Shown in pieces: positions 1,687 to 6,274 of a DNA stretch of 44,290 nucleotides. The translations under genes and the position numbers were made by a program. The stretch covers positions 1 through 44,290 of the forward strand of contig CAMZKV010000021.1 of the NCBI GenBank assembly GCA_947311445.1, written 5' to 3'. Numbering within the stretch: position 1 is the first letter of the stretch; each line of letters begins with the position of its first letter. Source of the DNA: an uncultured Chlorobiota bacterium. GTDB taxonomy: Bacteria > Bacteroidota > Bacteroidia > Bacteroidales > JAADGE01. The notes beneath the pieces are model-generated. The model did not search any database and was not told the origin of the DNA. It saw only the letters and a program-made list of their open reading frames with translations.

Positions 1687-2523
1687 CTAAACTATTCTTT
1701 TAATCTTATTTGCATCTTCAATCATTTTTGAAATTCCGGATTTATCATTTTCTGCAATTTTTAATTTAAATTCTTGAAGTTTCATTATATATGTATTTAA
1801 AACATCAACAACATTTTCAGAATTTTGGTTGAAAATGGGTGTCCACATCTCAGCAGAACTTTTGGCAAGTCGGACAGTTGAGCGAAAACCTCCGCCTGCC
1901 ATATTAAAAATCTGTTTTTCGTCTTTTTCTTTGTCTAAAACAGTAAGTGCCAAAATAAATGAACTTATGTGTGAAATATGTGAAACATATGCTGCATGAA
2001 CATCATGAGATTTTGCATCCATATATATCATTCTCATATTTAAGCTACCATACATATCTTCAACAATTCTCAATGCTTTTTTTGAGCTTTCGTGTTGGTT
2101 GCAAATAATTGCAGACTTACCATCATACATATGAGATATTGCAGCCCAAGGTCCTGAATATTCAGTTCCTGCCATTGGATGCGAGGCTACAAAATTTTTC
2201 CTTTTCGGATGATTTTTTACGAGCTTGCAAAGTCCATATTTTGTTGAACTTACATCTGTAACTATTTGATTATTAATCTTATCTAAAATACTTGGAAGAA
2301 TTGCTTGAACAATATTCACAGGTGTTGATACAATAATAAGATCTGCAAGTTTTATACCTTCCTCCAAATTAACTATTTCATCAACCAAACCAATACTTTT
2401 TGCAGTTTCAGCGTGTAATTTATTCTTGTCAACCCCGTAAATAATATCAGCAAATTTTCTCTTCTTTAAATCTATTGCCATTGAACCTCCAATTAATCCT
2501 AAGCCTATAATTGTTACTCTCAT
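1687..2523 (-). CDS. tyrA: prephenate dehydrogenase
   Basis: Oxidises and decarboxylates prephenate to 4-hydroxyphenylpyruvate, the committed step to tyrosine, in the cytoplasm. The 278 residues match a monofunctional enzyme. An N-terminal Rossmann domain carries GLGLIGG (7-13) and the strand VTDVSSTK (88-95). The signature SHPMAGTEYSGP (114-125) contains the family's catalytic His115. The helical dimerisation domain has the HDVHAAYVSHISH region (173-185) and GGGFRSTVRLA (210-220), whose Arg is typical of prephenate binding. There is no chorismate mutase fusion and no ACT domain. It is the last gene of the pheA - aminotransferase - tyrA operon, about 70 bp after the aminotransferase, and so falls under the attenuator upstream of pheA. 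Confidence 0.93.
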   Translation of the reverse strand: MRVTIIGLGLIGGSMAIDLKKRKFADIIYGVDKNKLHAETAKSIGLVDEIVNLEEGIKLADLIIVSTPVNIVQAILPSILDKINNQIVTDVSSTKYGLCKLVKNHPKRKNFVASHPMAGTEYSGPWAAISHMYDGKSAIICNQHESSKKALRIVEDMYGSLNMRMIYMDAKSHDVHAAYVSHISHISSFILALTVLDKEKDEKQIFNMAGGGFRSTVRLAKSSAEMWTPIFNQNSENVVDVLNTYIMKLQEFKLKIAENDKSGISKMIEDANKIKRIV

Positions 2524-2592: not shown

Positions 2593-3750
2593 TCATTTCT
2601 TTTTAATATCATAAAGAACTTTAAAAAAAACTTGAGTTTTGCTACATAATGAAATTCGTATATATTTTTGACCTTGTGAACCAAAAATTTCTCCGGGACT
2701 AATAAATATTCTATATTTTTTTAGTAAATAATCTGAAAATTGATAACTTGAATCAAAATTACTTGGTATTTCTGCCCAAACAAACAATCCTCCAATTTCT
2801 TTATCAAATTTACAATTTAAAAGCTCTAAAATTTCCCAAACTATTTTTTGTCTTTTTTTATATTCCAAATTCAAATTCTTATACCAAGAATTTTCAACTT
2901 TAAGAGCAGAAATTGCAGCTTGTTGAATTGGCAAAAACATTCCCGAAATCATATTTGATTGAATTTTCTGAATAGGTTTTAAATACTCTTCATTTCCAAA
3001 AACTGCTCCCACACGCCATCCTGCCATATTATGAGATTTGCTTAATGAATTAAGCTCAATTGCTGTATCAAAAGCTCCTTTCACTGATAAAATACTTAAA
3101 TAATCTTCATTTAAAATGAAATTATACGGATTATCATTACAAATTAATATATTGTTCTCTTTTCCAAAACTAATTAATTCTTCAAAGAAATATTTTGTGG
3201 CTTTTTGTCCGGTTGGCATATTAGGATAATTTATCCACATAATTTTAACTTTTGATAAATCTTTTTTTCTAAGTTCGTTAAAATCCGGATAAAAGTTATT
3301 TTCTTTTTTTAAATTATAAAGAATTGGTTTTGCTCCAACAATCTCTGTTACAGACGAATAAGTCGGATATGAAGGATTAGGAATCAATACTTCATCATCT
3401 GCATTTAAAAATGCTTTTGAAATATACATAATCCCAATTTTTGACCCCATTACAGGCAAAACTTCATTTTCAGGATTTATTTTAACACAAAAATATTTTT
3501 TATACCAATAAGAAAATGCTTCTCTTAATTCATAAATTCCTCTGTACGATTGATAAGAATGATTGTTAATATCAGAAGAAAACTTTTTTAAAGTACCAAT
3601 AACTGTTCTCGGAGGAGGTAAATCTGGGCTTCCAATTCCCAGGTTTATAATCTCAACACCTGAATCTCTTATTTCATTAATTTCTTTTAATTTTTTTGAG
3701 AAATAGTATTCTTGTACAGAACTTGCAGCTTTTGAAGGTTCAATTATCAT
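2593..3750 (-). CDS. class I/II PLP aminotransferase of the aromatic operon
   Basis: Fold-type I aminotransferase of 385 residues. Visible landmarks: GIGSPDLPPP near 38-47 (substrate and cofactor end), NYPNMPTGQ near 174-182, ICNDNPY near 203-209 (PLP-pyridine Asp), SLSKSHNMAGWRVG with the PLP Schiff-base Lys238, and YIRISLC near the C-terminus (carboxylate-binding Arg). Its place between prephenate dehydratase and prephenate dehydrogenase suggests that it transaminates phenylpyruvate and 4-hydroxyphenylpyruvate, or prephenate. Sequence alone cannot separate this from aspartate or LL-diaminopimelate aminotransferase relatives. Its ATG overlaps the pheA TAA by one base (3750), implying translational coupling. 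Confidence 0.87.
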   Translation of the reverse strand: MIIEPSKAASSVQEYYFSKKLKEINEIRDSGVEIINLGIGSPDLPPPRTVIGTLKKFSSDINNHSYQSYRGIYELREAFSYWYKKYFCVKINPENEVLPVMGSKIGIMYISKAFLNADDEVLIPNPSYPTYSSVTEIVGAKPILYNLKKENNFYPDFNELRKKDLSKVKIMWINYPNMPTGQKATKYFFEELISFGKENNILICNDNPYNFILNEDYLSILSVKGAFDTAIELNSLSKSHNMAGWRVGAVFGNEEYLKPIQKIQSNMISGMFLPIQQAAISALKVENSWYKNLNLEYKKRQKIVWEILELLNCKFDKEIGGLFVWAEIPSNFDSSYQFSDYLLKKYRIFISPGEIFGSQGQKYIRISLCSKTQVFFKVLYDIKKK

Positions 3751-4607
3751 TATATTTTCGTTTTATGAAGTTTAGTTAAAGATTTATTTGCTTCATTATA
3801 TTCTCCCATAATTTTAAAATTTTCAGTAAGTGGCATAACTGCATTTATAGATTGTTTATATCTTTCAAAATCATCGAAAATTAAATCTACATAAAAAGAA
3901 TATCTTCCGGGAACTCCTATTATTGGGTGAGATTGAATTTTATGAAGATTAATATCATAGAACGAAAAAACCGACAAAACTTTTGACAAACTTCCTGTTT
4001 TATTAGAAAGACTAAAACAAACTGAAGATTTGTTTACGTTTTCATTGCTTGTGTTATCATCCTTTTTTAACTCAAAAAATCTTGTATAATTTAATTTATT
4101 GTCTTCAATGCTTTTAGCAAGAATTTTTAAATTATATCTTTTTGCGGCAAAACTGCTTGCAATTGCTGCTGTATTTTTTGCTCCGGAACTTGAGATGTCT
4201 TTGGCACTTATTGCAGTATCAAAACTTTCAACCAAACGAATATTCGGATACTTTTTAAAAAAATTACTACATTGATAAATTGCCATTGGATGTGAAAAAA
4301 CTTCTTCAATATCTTCTATTTTTTCGCCGTTTTTTGCTATCAAGTTTTGTACTATCCTTAAATATATTTCACCGGTAATTTTTAATTTTGATTTTTCAAT
4401 TAATGAATAATTTGGAAGAATTGAACCTGCAATTGTGTTTTCAATTGCCATAATTCCTGTATCTGCTTTTTCGGTTTCAACTGCTTCAATTAAATCGGCA
4501 AATGTTCTACATTGTATAAGTTCAATGCTGTTAGTTTTATAGTACTTTACTGTAGCTTCTTCATGAAAAGCACCGAGTATTCCTTGAATTGCAACTTTAT
4601 TTACCAT
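3750..4607 (-). CDS. pheA: prephenate dehydratase with ACT domain
   Basis: Converts prephenate to phenylpyruvate, the committed step to phenylalanine. The N-terminal type 2 periplasmic-binding-like catalytic domain begins with KVAIQGILGAFHEEA and contains GIMAIENTIAGS (51-62), SHPMAIYQC (105-113) and the catalytic signature NYTRFFEL (173-180, Thr175-Arg176-Phe177). The C-terminal ACT domain (about 195-275) carries KTGSLSKVLSVF and HKIQSHPI, the region that normally binds feedback phenylalanine. At 285 residues it is a monofunctional enzyme without a fused chorismate mutase. It is the first structural gene of the aromatic operon. The ATG at 4607 lies 14 nt after the attenuator terminator stem. 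Confidence 0.93.
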   Translation of the reverse strand: MVNKVAIQGILGAFHEEATVKYYKTNSIELIQCRTFADLIEAVETEKADTGIMAIENTIAGSILPNYSLIEKSKLKITGEIYLRIVQNLIAKNGEKIEDIEEVFSHPMAIYQCSNFFKKYPNIRLVESFDTAISAKDISSSGAKNTAAIASSFAAKRYNLKILAKSIEDNKLNYTRFFELKKDDNTSNENVNKSSVCFSLSNKTGSLSKVLSVFSFYDINLHKIQSHPIIGVPGRYSFYVDLIFDDFERYKQSINAVMPLTENFKIMGEYNEANKSLTKLHKTKI

Positions 4608-4621
4608 TTTCTTAAAATTAA

Positions 4622-4647
4622 AAAATCCCGATTTTAGTCGGGATTTT
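4622..4647 (-). terminator. attenuator terminator of the phe/tyr operon
   Basis: On the minus strand the stem AAAATCCCGA / TCGGGATTTT is a perfect 10-bp pair with the six-base loop CTAAAA, continued directly into a T-rich tract. It sits between the leader-peptide stop (4671) and the pheA ATG (4607). Its 5' arm contains CCGACT (4641-4636 on the minus strand), exactly complementary to AGTCGG near the end of the leader peptide (4682-4677). Formation of the terminator therefore competes with an antiterminator. Confidence 0.87.
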
Positions 4648-4670
4648 GAATTAGTGAATTATATACACAT

Positions 4671-4736
4671 TTATTTCCGACTGTTGCTTAACAGTATAGA
4701 ATAAAAGAAATAAAAATATGTGTTTAATTTTTGCAT
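4671..4736 (-). CDS. pheL: Tyr/Phe-rich leader peptide of the pheA operon
   Basis: A 21-codon ORF whose only likely role is to measure the supply of charged tRNA. Codons 7-12 (4718-4701) read TAT TTT TAT TTC TTT TAT, encoding YFYFFY, six consecutive aromatic residues. The ORF ends with TAA at 4673-4671. Just downstream of the aromatic codons, ACTGTT (4695-4690) can pair with AACAGT (4685-4680) around a four-base loop. The second strand of that hairpin overlaps AGTCGG (4682-4677), which can instead pair with CCGACT in the terminator arm. A ribosome stalled on the Phe/Tyr codons would cover the first arm, freeing the antiterminator. A ribosome reaching the stop would cover the second arm, letting the terminator form. 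The symbol is by analogy with pheL in Proteobacteria. Confidence 0.87.
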   Translation of the reverse strand: MQKLNTYFYFFYSILLSNSRK

Positions 4737-4755
4737 TTTAGTTTATTTGAGAATG

Positions 4756-4763
4756 TAAAAGTA
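4756..4763 (-). promoter_or_regulatory. probable -7 box for the pheL-pheA operon
   Basis: TACTTTTA on the minus strand is one mismatch from the Bacteroidota -7 consensus TAnnTTTG and is followed by CATTC. It would place the transcription start a dozen or so bases before the leader ATG (4736). No clear -33 TTTG is visible at the right distance. Confidence 0.45.
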
Positions 4764-4789: not shown

Positions 4790-6274
4790 TTATAAATATT
4801 TTTTTAGTACTCCTGTTCTTTCATTAAACTCATTAATTAATTCATCCCAACGGTGGACTTGATTAAACATTGTATTCCAAATATTTCTATCGTTCCAAAG
4901 TTGGTTTAAATCTTCAACATCTTTTTCTTGTTGTTCAACCCAAGTAAAATATTTTAAGTTATGAATTGCTTTTCTGTCATGATAACCAAGTTCTTTCATA
5001 TTATCAACTTGTTGCCCAAGCATACATTTTTCAAAATCTTTAACTGCCTGAATTTCATCATATTGCCCTCTTTCTTCTCTTAATTCATCAACTCTGGATT
5101 TATACATATCAGCACTATCAGTTGCAATTGTAATAATAATATCATCCGAAGTCATTTCAAAATATTTAGCAGTTTTAATTGCTGAAAGTAAGTTTCCAAT
5201 TCCTGAAATTCCTATTAAATGTAATTGGCTAATTAATTCATCAGAAATTCCTATTGATTTAAGATATTTATGTCCTTCCGGCTCATTAAATAGTCTTAAT
5301 AGTCGCATTGGGTCTTCATCATCTATAGCAGTAACAACATCAGTGTTTTTCACATTATGTATCCATGGAATATGTTTATCTCCAATTCCTTCAATTCTGT
5401 GAGCTCCAAAACCGTTTCTTAAAATTGTAGGACATTGTAATGCTTCGGAAGCAACAACTTTAATGTGAGGAAATAAAGTTCTTAAATAATCTCCGGCAGC
5501 AATAGTTCCTGCCGAACCGGTTGCCGAAACATACCCGGCAAATCTGCTGTTTTCATTTTTTATTAAATTATAAATTTCTTCAATTGCACTTCCTGTAACA
5601 TTAAAATGCCAGGCAGGATTTCCAAATTCATCAAACTGATTAAAGATTACAACATCATCTCTGGTTCTTTTAAGTTCCCAACATTTGTCGTAAATTTCTT
5701 TTACGTTTGATTCGCTTCCGTATGTAGCAATTACAGTGGATTTTGCAATATTTTTAAGCCAATCAAAGCGTTCTTTGCTCATTTCTTCGGGAAGTATTGC
5801 AATTGGCTCTGTTCCCATTAATCTGCTGTCGAAGGCACCTCCTCTACAATAATTCCCTGTTGATGGCCAAACTGCTTTGTGGTATGTTGGGTCAAATTCG
5901 CCTGTTGTAATTCTAGGTGCAAGGCATCCGTATGCTGCACCTACTTTATGTGCACCCGTAGGAAAATATTTTCCAACCATCAAAACAATTCTTGCATTAA
6001 CACCTGTAAACTCTTTTGGAAGCTCAATAAATGTAGGGGTTTCAAAAAGTCCTCCTTTTTCTTTTGCTTCATTTTTCCAAGTTATTCTGAAAAGATTTAA
6101 AGGATTAAAATCCCAAAGCCCAATATTTTTTAATTCATCTTTAATTTTTCCGGGAATTGTATCTGGATTTTTTTGTTGTTCAAAAGTAGGAAGTATAATA
6201 CCTTTTTCTTTAAAAACTTTTATTGCATTTTCTAATGCTCTTTCATTTGTTATTTTGTCTATTGGTTTAATCAT
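4790..6274 (-). CDS. TrpB/cysteine-synthase superfamily PLP enzyme, function not established
   Basis: Fold-type II PLP enzyme of 494 residues. The PLP-lysine motif is PTGAHKVGAAYG with Lys110. STGNYCRGGAFDS is the substrate-loop Asn region of this superfamily, and TGSAGTIAAGDYLR is the phosphate-binding Gly/Ser stretch. It is longer than cysteine synthase (about 310) or TrpB (about 400). It matches my recollection of a conserved Bacteroidota family annotated only as PLP-dependent beta subunit. It lies immediately upstream of, and in the same direction as, the phe/tyr attenuator, and no terminator is visible after it, so read-through into the leader is possible. No trpA or other trp gene is nearby, so a role in tryptophan synthesis is not supported. 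Confidence 0.75.
   Translation of the reverse strand: MIKPIDKITNERALENAIKVFKEKGIILPTFEQQKNPDTIPGKIKDELKNIGLWDFNPLNLFRITWKNEAKEKGGLFETPTFIELPKEFTGVNARIVLMVGKYFPTGAHKVGAAYGCLAPRITTGEFDPTYHKAVWPSTGNYCRGGAFDSRLMGTEPIAILPEEMSKERFDWLKNIAKSTVIATYGSESNVKEIYDKCWELKRTRDDVVIFNQFDEFGNPAWHFNVTGSAIEEIYNLIKNENSRFAGYVSATGSAGTIAAGDYLRTLFPHIKVVASEALQCPTILRNGFGAHRIEGIGDKHIPWIHNVKNTDVVTAIDDEDPMRLLRLFNEPEGHKYLKSIGISDELISQLHLIGISGIGNLLSAIKTAKYFEMTSDDIIITIATDSADMYKSRVDELREERGQYDEIQAVKDFEKCMLGQQVDNMKELGYHDRKAIHNLKYFTWVEQQEKDVEDLNQLWNDRNIWNTMFNQVHRWDELINEFNERTGVLKKYL

Follow-up and report, generated by a model that had tools for sequence, protein, structure and literature searches.

The pheA-aminotransferase-tyrA operon on the minus strand of the 44,290-nt stretch of DNA analyzed here (the window) is very probably preceded by a ribosome-mediated transcription attenuator acting as a joint sensor of charged tRNA-Phe and tRNA-Tyr. 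Sequence comparison and computation establish its parts, their conservation and covariation, the specificity of its codons, and the logic of its fold. A leader ORF rich in codons for the operon's products and an intrinsic terminator before the first gene are read directly from the sequence. The antiterminator (2:3) and terminator (3:4) pairings are mutually exclusive and covary in 50 leaders, the window included, that were chosen for alignability. Masked folding shows segment 2 blocked when the ribosome sits on the leader stop codon, and the codons agree with the amino acids that the operon produces. A Phe/Tyr attenuator that is conserved and covaries across Bacteroidia would offer a straightforward, testable example of transcription timed by translation, in a phylum prominent in the gut and in the environment.

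Table 1. Features of the operon and its leader in the window, with the evidence for each.
Feature	Position	Strand	Sequence or partner	Evidence or remark
-7-like promoter box (putative)	4756-4763	-	TACTTTTA	7/8 letters of TAnnTTTG
Leader ORF, 21 codons plus stop	4671-4736	-	MQKLNTYFYFFYSILLSNSRK	Sequence; leaders kept upstream of pheA
Six Tyr/Phe codons, predicted to be regulatory	4701-4718	-	TAT TTT TAT TTC TTT TAT (Y F Y F F Y)	
Segment 1, outer strand	4718-4723	-	ACACAT, partner 4670-4665	Minimum-energy dot-bracket
Segment 1, inner (segment 1 of the sequence-only reading)	4690-4695	-	ACTGTT	Sequence and fold
Segment 2	4677-4685	-	AACAGTCGG	0/100 shuffles as strong (L001)
Part of segment 2	4680-4685	-	AACAGT, partner of ACTGTT	
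Antiterminator left strand	4677-4682	-	AGTCGG, partner CCGACT	
Segment 2b	4665-4670	-	ATGTGT, partner of ACACAT	Minimum-energy fold
Segment 3	4636-4647	-	CCGACT (4641-4636) pairs with segment 2	
Terminator left arm, within segment 3	4638-4647	-	AAAATCCCGA	Pairs with segment 4
Segment 4 with end of T-tract	4620-4631	-	TCGGGATTTT	Right arm 4631-4622
pheA, prephenate dehydratase	3750-4607	-		PF00800 8.3e-57; PRK11898 3.5e-61
Class I/II aminotransferase of the operon	2593-3750	-		PF00155 4e-52
tyrA, prephenate dehydrogenase	1687-2523	-		PRK08507 6.2e-104, above cut-off

Anatomy of the leader

The pheA product scores 206.8 bits with PRK11898 against a cut-off of 219, and its ACT domain match stays under the Pfam cut-off. 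The next gene upstream (4790-6274, minus strand) encodes a PALP-domain, cysteine-synthase-like protein, and 53 nt separate its end from the leader ORF. Counted over both strands, the window has 21 terminator-like sites, only one of which, at the pheA leader, forms an aromatic leader-plus-terminator unit.

The -7 promoter consensus of Bacteroidota is TAnnTTTG. The -7-like box, the AGTCGG/CCGACT antiterminator pair, and both arms of the segment 3/4 terminator with its T-tract lie on the minus strand exactly where an earlier sequence-only reading had put them; the 21-codon ORF with its uninterrupted run of six Tyr/Phe codons agrees with that reading in every base, and pheA begins at 4607, 14 nt past the terminator stem, as that reading had it. 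Its segment 1:2 pairing, ACTGTT with AACAGT, has the right sequences and coordinates, but the 1:2 pairing is larger: in the minimum-energy fold the outer strand of segment 1 pairs with segment 2b, part of the codon run (4713-4706) pairs with 4678-4671, and the ACTGTT/AACAGT hairpin is nested within this composite. Folding the leader had been suggested as a check, and the region 4600-4763 is indeed far more stable than its shuffles (z = -3.95; 0/200 equally good).

Conservation and covariation among relatives

Regions upstream of pheA were taken from the genus, family, and order of the window, from 80 named GTDB contigs, and from 89 further genomes of the order, class, and phylum drawn from 336 others with a pheA match. 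Within the genus, six of 14 genomes, including that of the window, have a pheA match. Four duplicates were removed, as were three loci whose upstream sequence was short, leaving 190 loci in this first set. With a unit defined as a leader that has six or more aromatic residues within 10 and, after it, an intrinsic terminator, 147 of the 190 loci across the phylum carry one upstream of pheA, compared with 0 of 950 dinucleotide shuffles, and the central claim of the earlier reading, a Phe/Tyr attenuator for a joint pheA/tyrA operon, is borne out by this conservation of leader, codons, and pairings. Units are found in 143/165 loci within the class of the window. By group, they occur in 24/27 loci from genus to order, 64/74 named contigs, and 53/59 loci of the same class; further loci of the same order have the unit in 2/5 and the leader in 5/5, and other classes of the phylum have the unit in 4/25. 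Part of the 43 loci without a detected unit have GTG starts or terminators overlooked by the detection rule.

A second, partly overlapping set of 211 loci has a leader in 195 under a looser leader rule, and at least one unit in 179 of the 208 loci with at least 300 nt of upstream sequence (0/624 shuffles). In 109/161 loci the 75 nt preceding the leader contain the full TAnnTTTG motif, compared with 247/3220 shuffles; the window, whose box has one mismatch, is not among the 109. Two loci titled Chlorobi or Chlorobiota (L029, CAMZKL010000060.1, and L030) have upstream sequences identical to L002 and L003 of the window's genus, and these titles look outdated or wrong; the genus shares its order with species of Bacteroidales, and the host of the window probably belongs there too.

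Aligning relatives had also been proposed as a check, and besides the conserved leader, codon run, and pairings it reveals compensatory changes. In alignment A2 (50 leaders including the window, picked for alignability), 95.4% of the pairs in helices 1:2b and 3:4 are standard and 11 of 17 pairs show two-sided changes, with 98 such cells; shuffled means are 85.3%, 5.7 pairs, and 30.9 cells. None of 500 shuffles reaches either the pairing percentage or the two-sided count, and slid controls are 35-49% paired. The antiterminator helix 2:3 has 91.6% standard pairs (0/500 shuffles) and two-sided changes in 6 of 9 pairs (1/500), the shuffled means being 84.3% and 3.9. One position changes jointly in segments 2, 3, and 4 (GCG in 28/50, ATA in 12/50, other combinations in 10/50), the pattern that a need for both 2:3 and 3:4 pairing would produce. 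Unit by unit, 80/100 have a 2:3 pairing that outdoes 95 or more of 100 shuffles; a looser test of 1:2b is better than shuffles in only 36/100 units, and for the window's own 1:2b 12/100 shuffles did as well. The flanking ACACAT:ATGTGT helix of the window is two bases out of A2 register, with a helix at the equivalent place covarying in relatives, and the ACTGTT inner hairpin is, by eye, only partly kept in five aligned relatives of the same genus.

These results bear on a plainer explanation in which the hairpin is the constitutive terminator of the PALP gene, pheA has a promoter downstream, and the aromatic ORF is an accident of AT-rich DNA. The PALP gene does lie close upstream on the same strand, and at the window's 27.8% G+C Phe and Tyr codons are common. 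We nevertheless hold this highly improbable, as units occur in none of the shuffles and are conserved in the class, segment 2 covaries with segment 3, which a simple terminator would not need, codon content tracks operon content (see below), and just 14 nt separate the stem from pheA. Translational control or reinitiation, with the leader acting mainly on pheA translation and less on termination, is likewise very unlikely. Leader ORFs that aid reinitiation have been proposed, with a distance peak at 11-14 bp in Bacteroidetes (PMC4833913), and the leader stop codon here precedes the pheA ATG; its distance of 63 nt is, however, far from that peak, leader and gene are separated by a strong terminator with T-tract, and covariation links strands 2, 3, and 4.

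A covariance model (R1) built from A2 was used to search 60 genomes. At E <= 1e-4 it found 21 places, of which 16 are upstream of pheA, four upstream of an aminotransferase or tyrA gene, and one off target (G002:C137); eight of the 21, including the window, are training sequences. The four aminotransferase or tyrA matches (G048, G038, G033, G058) include no training sequence and come from genomes in which these genes lie apart from pheA or pheA was not found. Three weaker R1 matches (G010:C109, G033:C86, G052:C99) have no aromatic gene downstream by tblastn, and none was seen by eye downstream of four others (L224-L227). With a model like R1, annotators could label this element, for which no Rfam family came up to its gathering score in the window.

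In an Rfam scan of the window only two tRNAs reached gathering score, and no riboswitch or T-box did. Phe_leader (RF01859, gathering 55 bits) has no match in the window; among 15 loci its best score is 31.3 bits, with four relatives at 28.8-31.3 bits and L001 without a match up to E 1. Bacteroid-trp (RF01692, gathering 49 bits) matches neither the window nor, at E <= 0.001, its own genome. Sub-threshold matches of L018 to Leu_leader (33.8 of 50 bits) and of L015 to Thr_leader (27.5 of 55 bits) were set aside as generic attenuator likeness. In other phyla, riboswitches and T-boxes ahead of aromatic genes do likewise combine antiterminator and terminator pairing, and such an element could bind a metabolite or uncharged tRNA here with the ORF incidental. 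This we regard as scarcely credible, given the Rfam result, the absence by eye of a large conserved aptamer fold in the alignment, and the fact that the conserved feature is a frame of Phe/Tyr codons whose identity tracks the operon. We rejected the readings as plain upstream-gene terminator, riboswitch or T-box, and reinitiation-only device.

Leader codons, operon content, and tandem units

To find partner genes downstream of pheA, tblastn was run with three queries: the aminotransferase and the tyrA of the window, and a fragment of DAHP synthase. Among the 211 loci, 195 have a partner gene (185 with a leader), 13 have none in the sequence searched (8 with a leader), and three could not be assigned. 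Any of the three genes counted as a partner, a definition set after the result of an aminotransferase-only linkage test in which the Tyr fraction did not differ (p = 0.15), because 16 of 20 "unlinked" pheA loci precede DAHP synthase or tyrA. Partners include the aminotransferase in 142 of the 184 leader-bearing loci given a partner at the first assignment, and consist of DAHP synthase alone in 32. The Tyr share, Y/(F+Y), was taken from the most aromatic ORF of each locus, the last ORF being a false leader in L059 and L293; L028 and L045 were excluded from the comparison for having less than 150 nt of downstream sequence. L337, a candidate mixed-codon exception among stand-alone loci, has an aminotransferase match 2 nt past the pheA match and was placed in the linked set.

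Codon identity follows operon content. In the 185 pheA leaders with partners the Tyr share is 0.11-0.78 (median 0.40) and Tyr is present in all, compared with 0-0.2 (median 0) in the eight stand-alone pheA leaders, five of which lack Tyr. Operons of aminotransferase and/or tyrA without pheA have shares of 0.36-0.80 (median 0.57; 13 leaders from 11 genomes). Stand-alone leaders differ from partnered ones with p = 1.8e-6 and from those of pheA-less operons with p = 1.7e-4, where the eight stand-alone leaders represent four families of the order, or about four independent cases, and partners of five of them were sought in 1.3-1.5 kb downstream only. A codon make-up that tracks the operon fits a sensor of the operon's own products, unlike a chance ORF, and agrees with the earlier proposal that joint sensing of Phe and Tyr suits a pheA/tyrA operon. 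Two partnered loci, L290 and L296, have unusually few Tyr codons (1/9 and 2/11 of Phe plus Tyr).

Genomes with split operons link the leader codons to the products of each operon. In G038, the leader of pheA is MTRFFTHFFFFFTQQ and that of tyrA-DAHP synthase is MNNTFGYYAFYYYFFYNN. The pheA leaders of G663 and G505 are dominated by Phe, and in both genomes aminotransferase-tyrA is preceded by two successive Tyr-rich leaders (L389, L387), each followed by a hairpin and T-run as judged by eye. The match of leader codons to operon content amounts to a natural experiment and is the strongest argument for function. Stand-alone pheA has no leader in 5/13 loci. Four stand-alone pheA loci of the same order have no detectable leader (L334, L338, L355, L365); the leaderless stand-alone genomes have a Tyr/Phe leader at the aminotransferase in three cases (G691, G543, G512) and at tyrA in G481.

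At least 19 of 208 loci have two complete aromatic units in tandem upstream of pheA (L003-L006, L009, L026, L028, L034, L039, L056, L080, L101, L297, L303, L307, L311, L329, L330, L339), a lower bound since for part of the loci only about 320 nt of upstream sequence was available. Both units carry Phe/Tyr codons and a terminator, and some also have Trp codons. L003-L006 belong to genomes of the window's genus; the window and its closest relative have a single unit. On balance we favor the idea that Bacteroidia have an ancient family of Phe/Tyr attenuators, spread through the class, with codons tuned to the operon and repeatedly doubled on one transcript. Leaders of such a family would be wholly or almost wholly Phe-coding where pheA has left the operon, and Tyr-richer before aminotransferase/tyrA operons without pheA. 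The tandem arrangement perhaps gives a steeper or a two-input response.

Switch logic and known systems

The switch was modeled by folding the window RNA up to segment 3 with the ribosome represented as a 30-nt mask, an assumed size, placed on each aromatic codon in order. The probability of 2:3 pairing is about 0 in free RNA, 0.23-0.93 with a stalled ribosome, and 0 with the ribosome at the stop. The sequence-only reading had the stalled ribosome cover segment 1 and so release the antiterminator. Stalling does free 2:3 in the model, but with the ribosome at the first Tyr codon ACTGTT remains uncovered and the probability is 0.23, rising to 0.93 at the last codon; the 5' strand removed by the stalled ribosome would, in the model, consist for the most part of the codon run together with the bases immediately 5' of it. 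Over 96 units the mean probability is 0.62 for free RNA, 0.85 under stalling, and 0.04 with the ribosome at the stop; the stop value is lower than the stalled one by more than 0.2 in 88/96. While the 1:2 helix closes segment 2 in the window's fold, protection in free RNA varies among relatives, and the mean of 0.62 means that their 1:2 helix is not uniformly protective. The modeled folds suggest that the conserved logic is stalled versus finished translation, the untranslated state differing between relatives. The window's antiterminator has 6 bp only, and with full-length RNA the terminator is in the minimum-energy fold of every state tried; therefore the choice must be kinetic, made during transcription, as in known attenuators.

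For the cell, we infer the start site, ribosome stalling, and termination as follows. RNA polymerase would start near 4750. When Phe and Tyr are ample, the ribosome would run through the codons to the stop, 3 nt past segment 2, and hide that segment, so that 3:4 forms and transcription ends before pheA. When either is scarce, it would stall in the codon run, holding the 5' strand of helix 1:2; segment 2 would then be free to pair with segment 3 before segment 4 is made, with read-through into pheA-aminotransferase-tyrA. If the leader is not translated at all, the composite 1:2 helix of the window should keep segment 2 closed and lead to termination. A class-wide family of such attenuators would imply tight timing between transcription and translation, at any rate within these leaders. 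To our knowledge, the phylum is mostly without Shine-Dalgarno sites. The same has been noted for flavobacteria (PMC9723704).

The earlier remark that such attenuation is not well described for aromatic synthesis in this phylum was overstated, given Bacteroid-trp and a structured 5' element of pheA in Flavobacterium psychrophilum. The latter, like the element here, lies upstream of pheA; it has no Rfam hits, is conserved in other genera of Flavobacteriaceae, and is accompanied by clues for leader-peptide attenuation at amino-acid operons (PMC9723704). The two elements are likely identical. The section of that account concerned with it (section 19) gives neither the anatomy nor an analysis of Phe/Tyr codons, and treats neither tandem copies nor occurrence outside the family (PMC9723704). 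In Bacteroides thetaiotaomicron, small ORFs reminiscent of leader peptides have been noted (PMC7366714), and a 2010 survey states that, to its authors' knowledge, leader-peptide systems were unshown outside Proteobacteria and Actinobacteria, bar a Firmicutes case of their own and the ermC leader (PMC2965389). In the literature searched, largely outside subscription journals, we recognized no account of the extent, anatomy, or tandem form of a joint Phe/Tyr attenuator, nor an earlier one of the codon-operon match of Phe/Tyr leaders.

The tandem loci resemble the mgtCBR leader of Salmonella, which has two short ORFs and proposed attenuation control but belongs to a Mg2+ transporter and virulence operon and not to amino-acid synthesis (PMC3641672); in the tandem loci here both units have aromatic codons and a terminator. 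Within the phylum, RF01692 is a trp motif (PMC2864571). Two examples (L228, L231) have a short Trp-rich ORF and a terminator-like hairpin, followed by a gene judged by eye to be TrpB-like, and the motif differs from the window element in its Trp codons and trp genes. L231 (G022:C26) scores 48.5 bits as Bacteroid-trp, against the cut-off of 49, and is also a weak R1 match (E 0.008), a double match hinting at an attenuator layout common to trp and phe/tyr in the phylum.

Ribosome-mediated attenuation is usually taught from enterobacteria, where the pheA leader (pheL; RF01859) has, like the element here, a leader peptide rich in the product and mutually exclusive antiterminator and terminator before pheA. 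In Escherichia coli pheL is Phe-rich, and the stand-alone pheA leaders of Bacteroidales are likewise Phe-only or Phe-dominant. The element described here differs in lacking Rfam membership by the scores given above, and in the mixture of Phe and Tyr codons found in leaders of operons that unite pheA with further aromatic genes.
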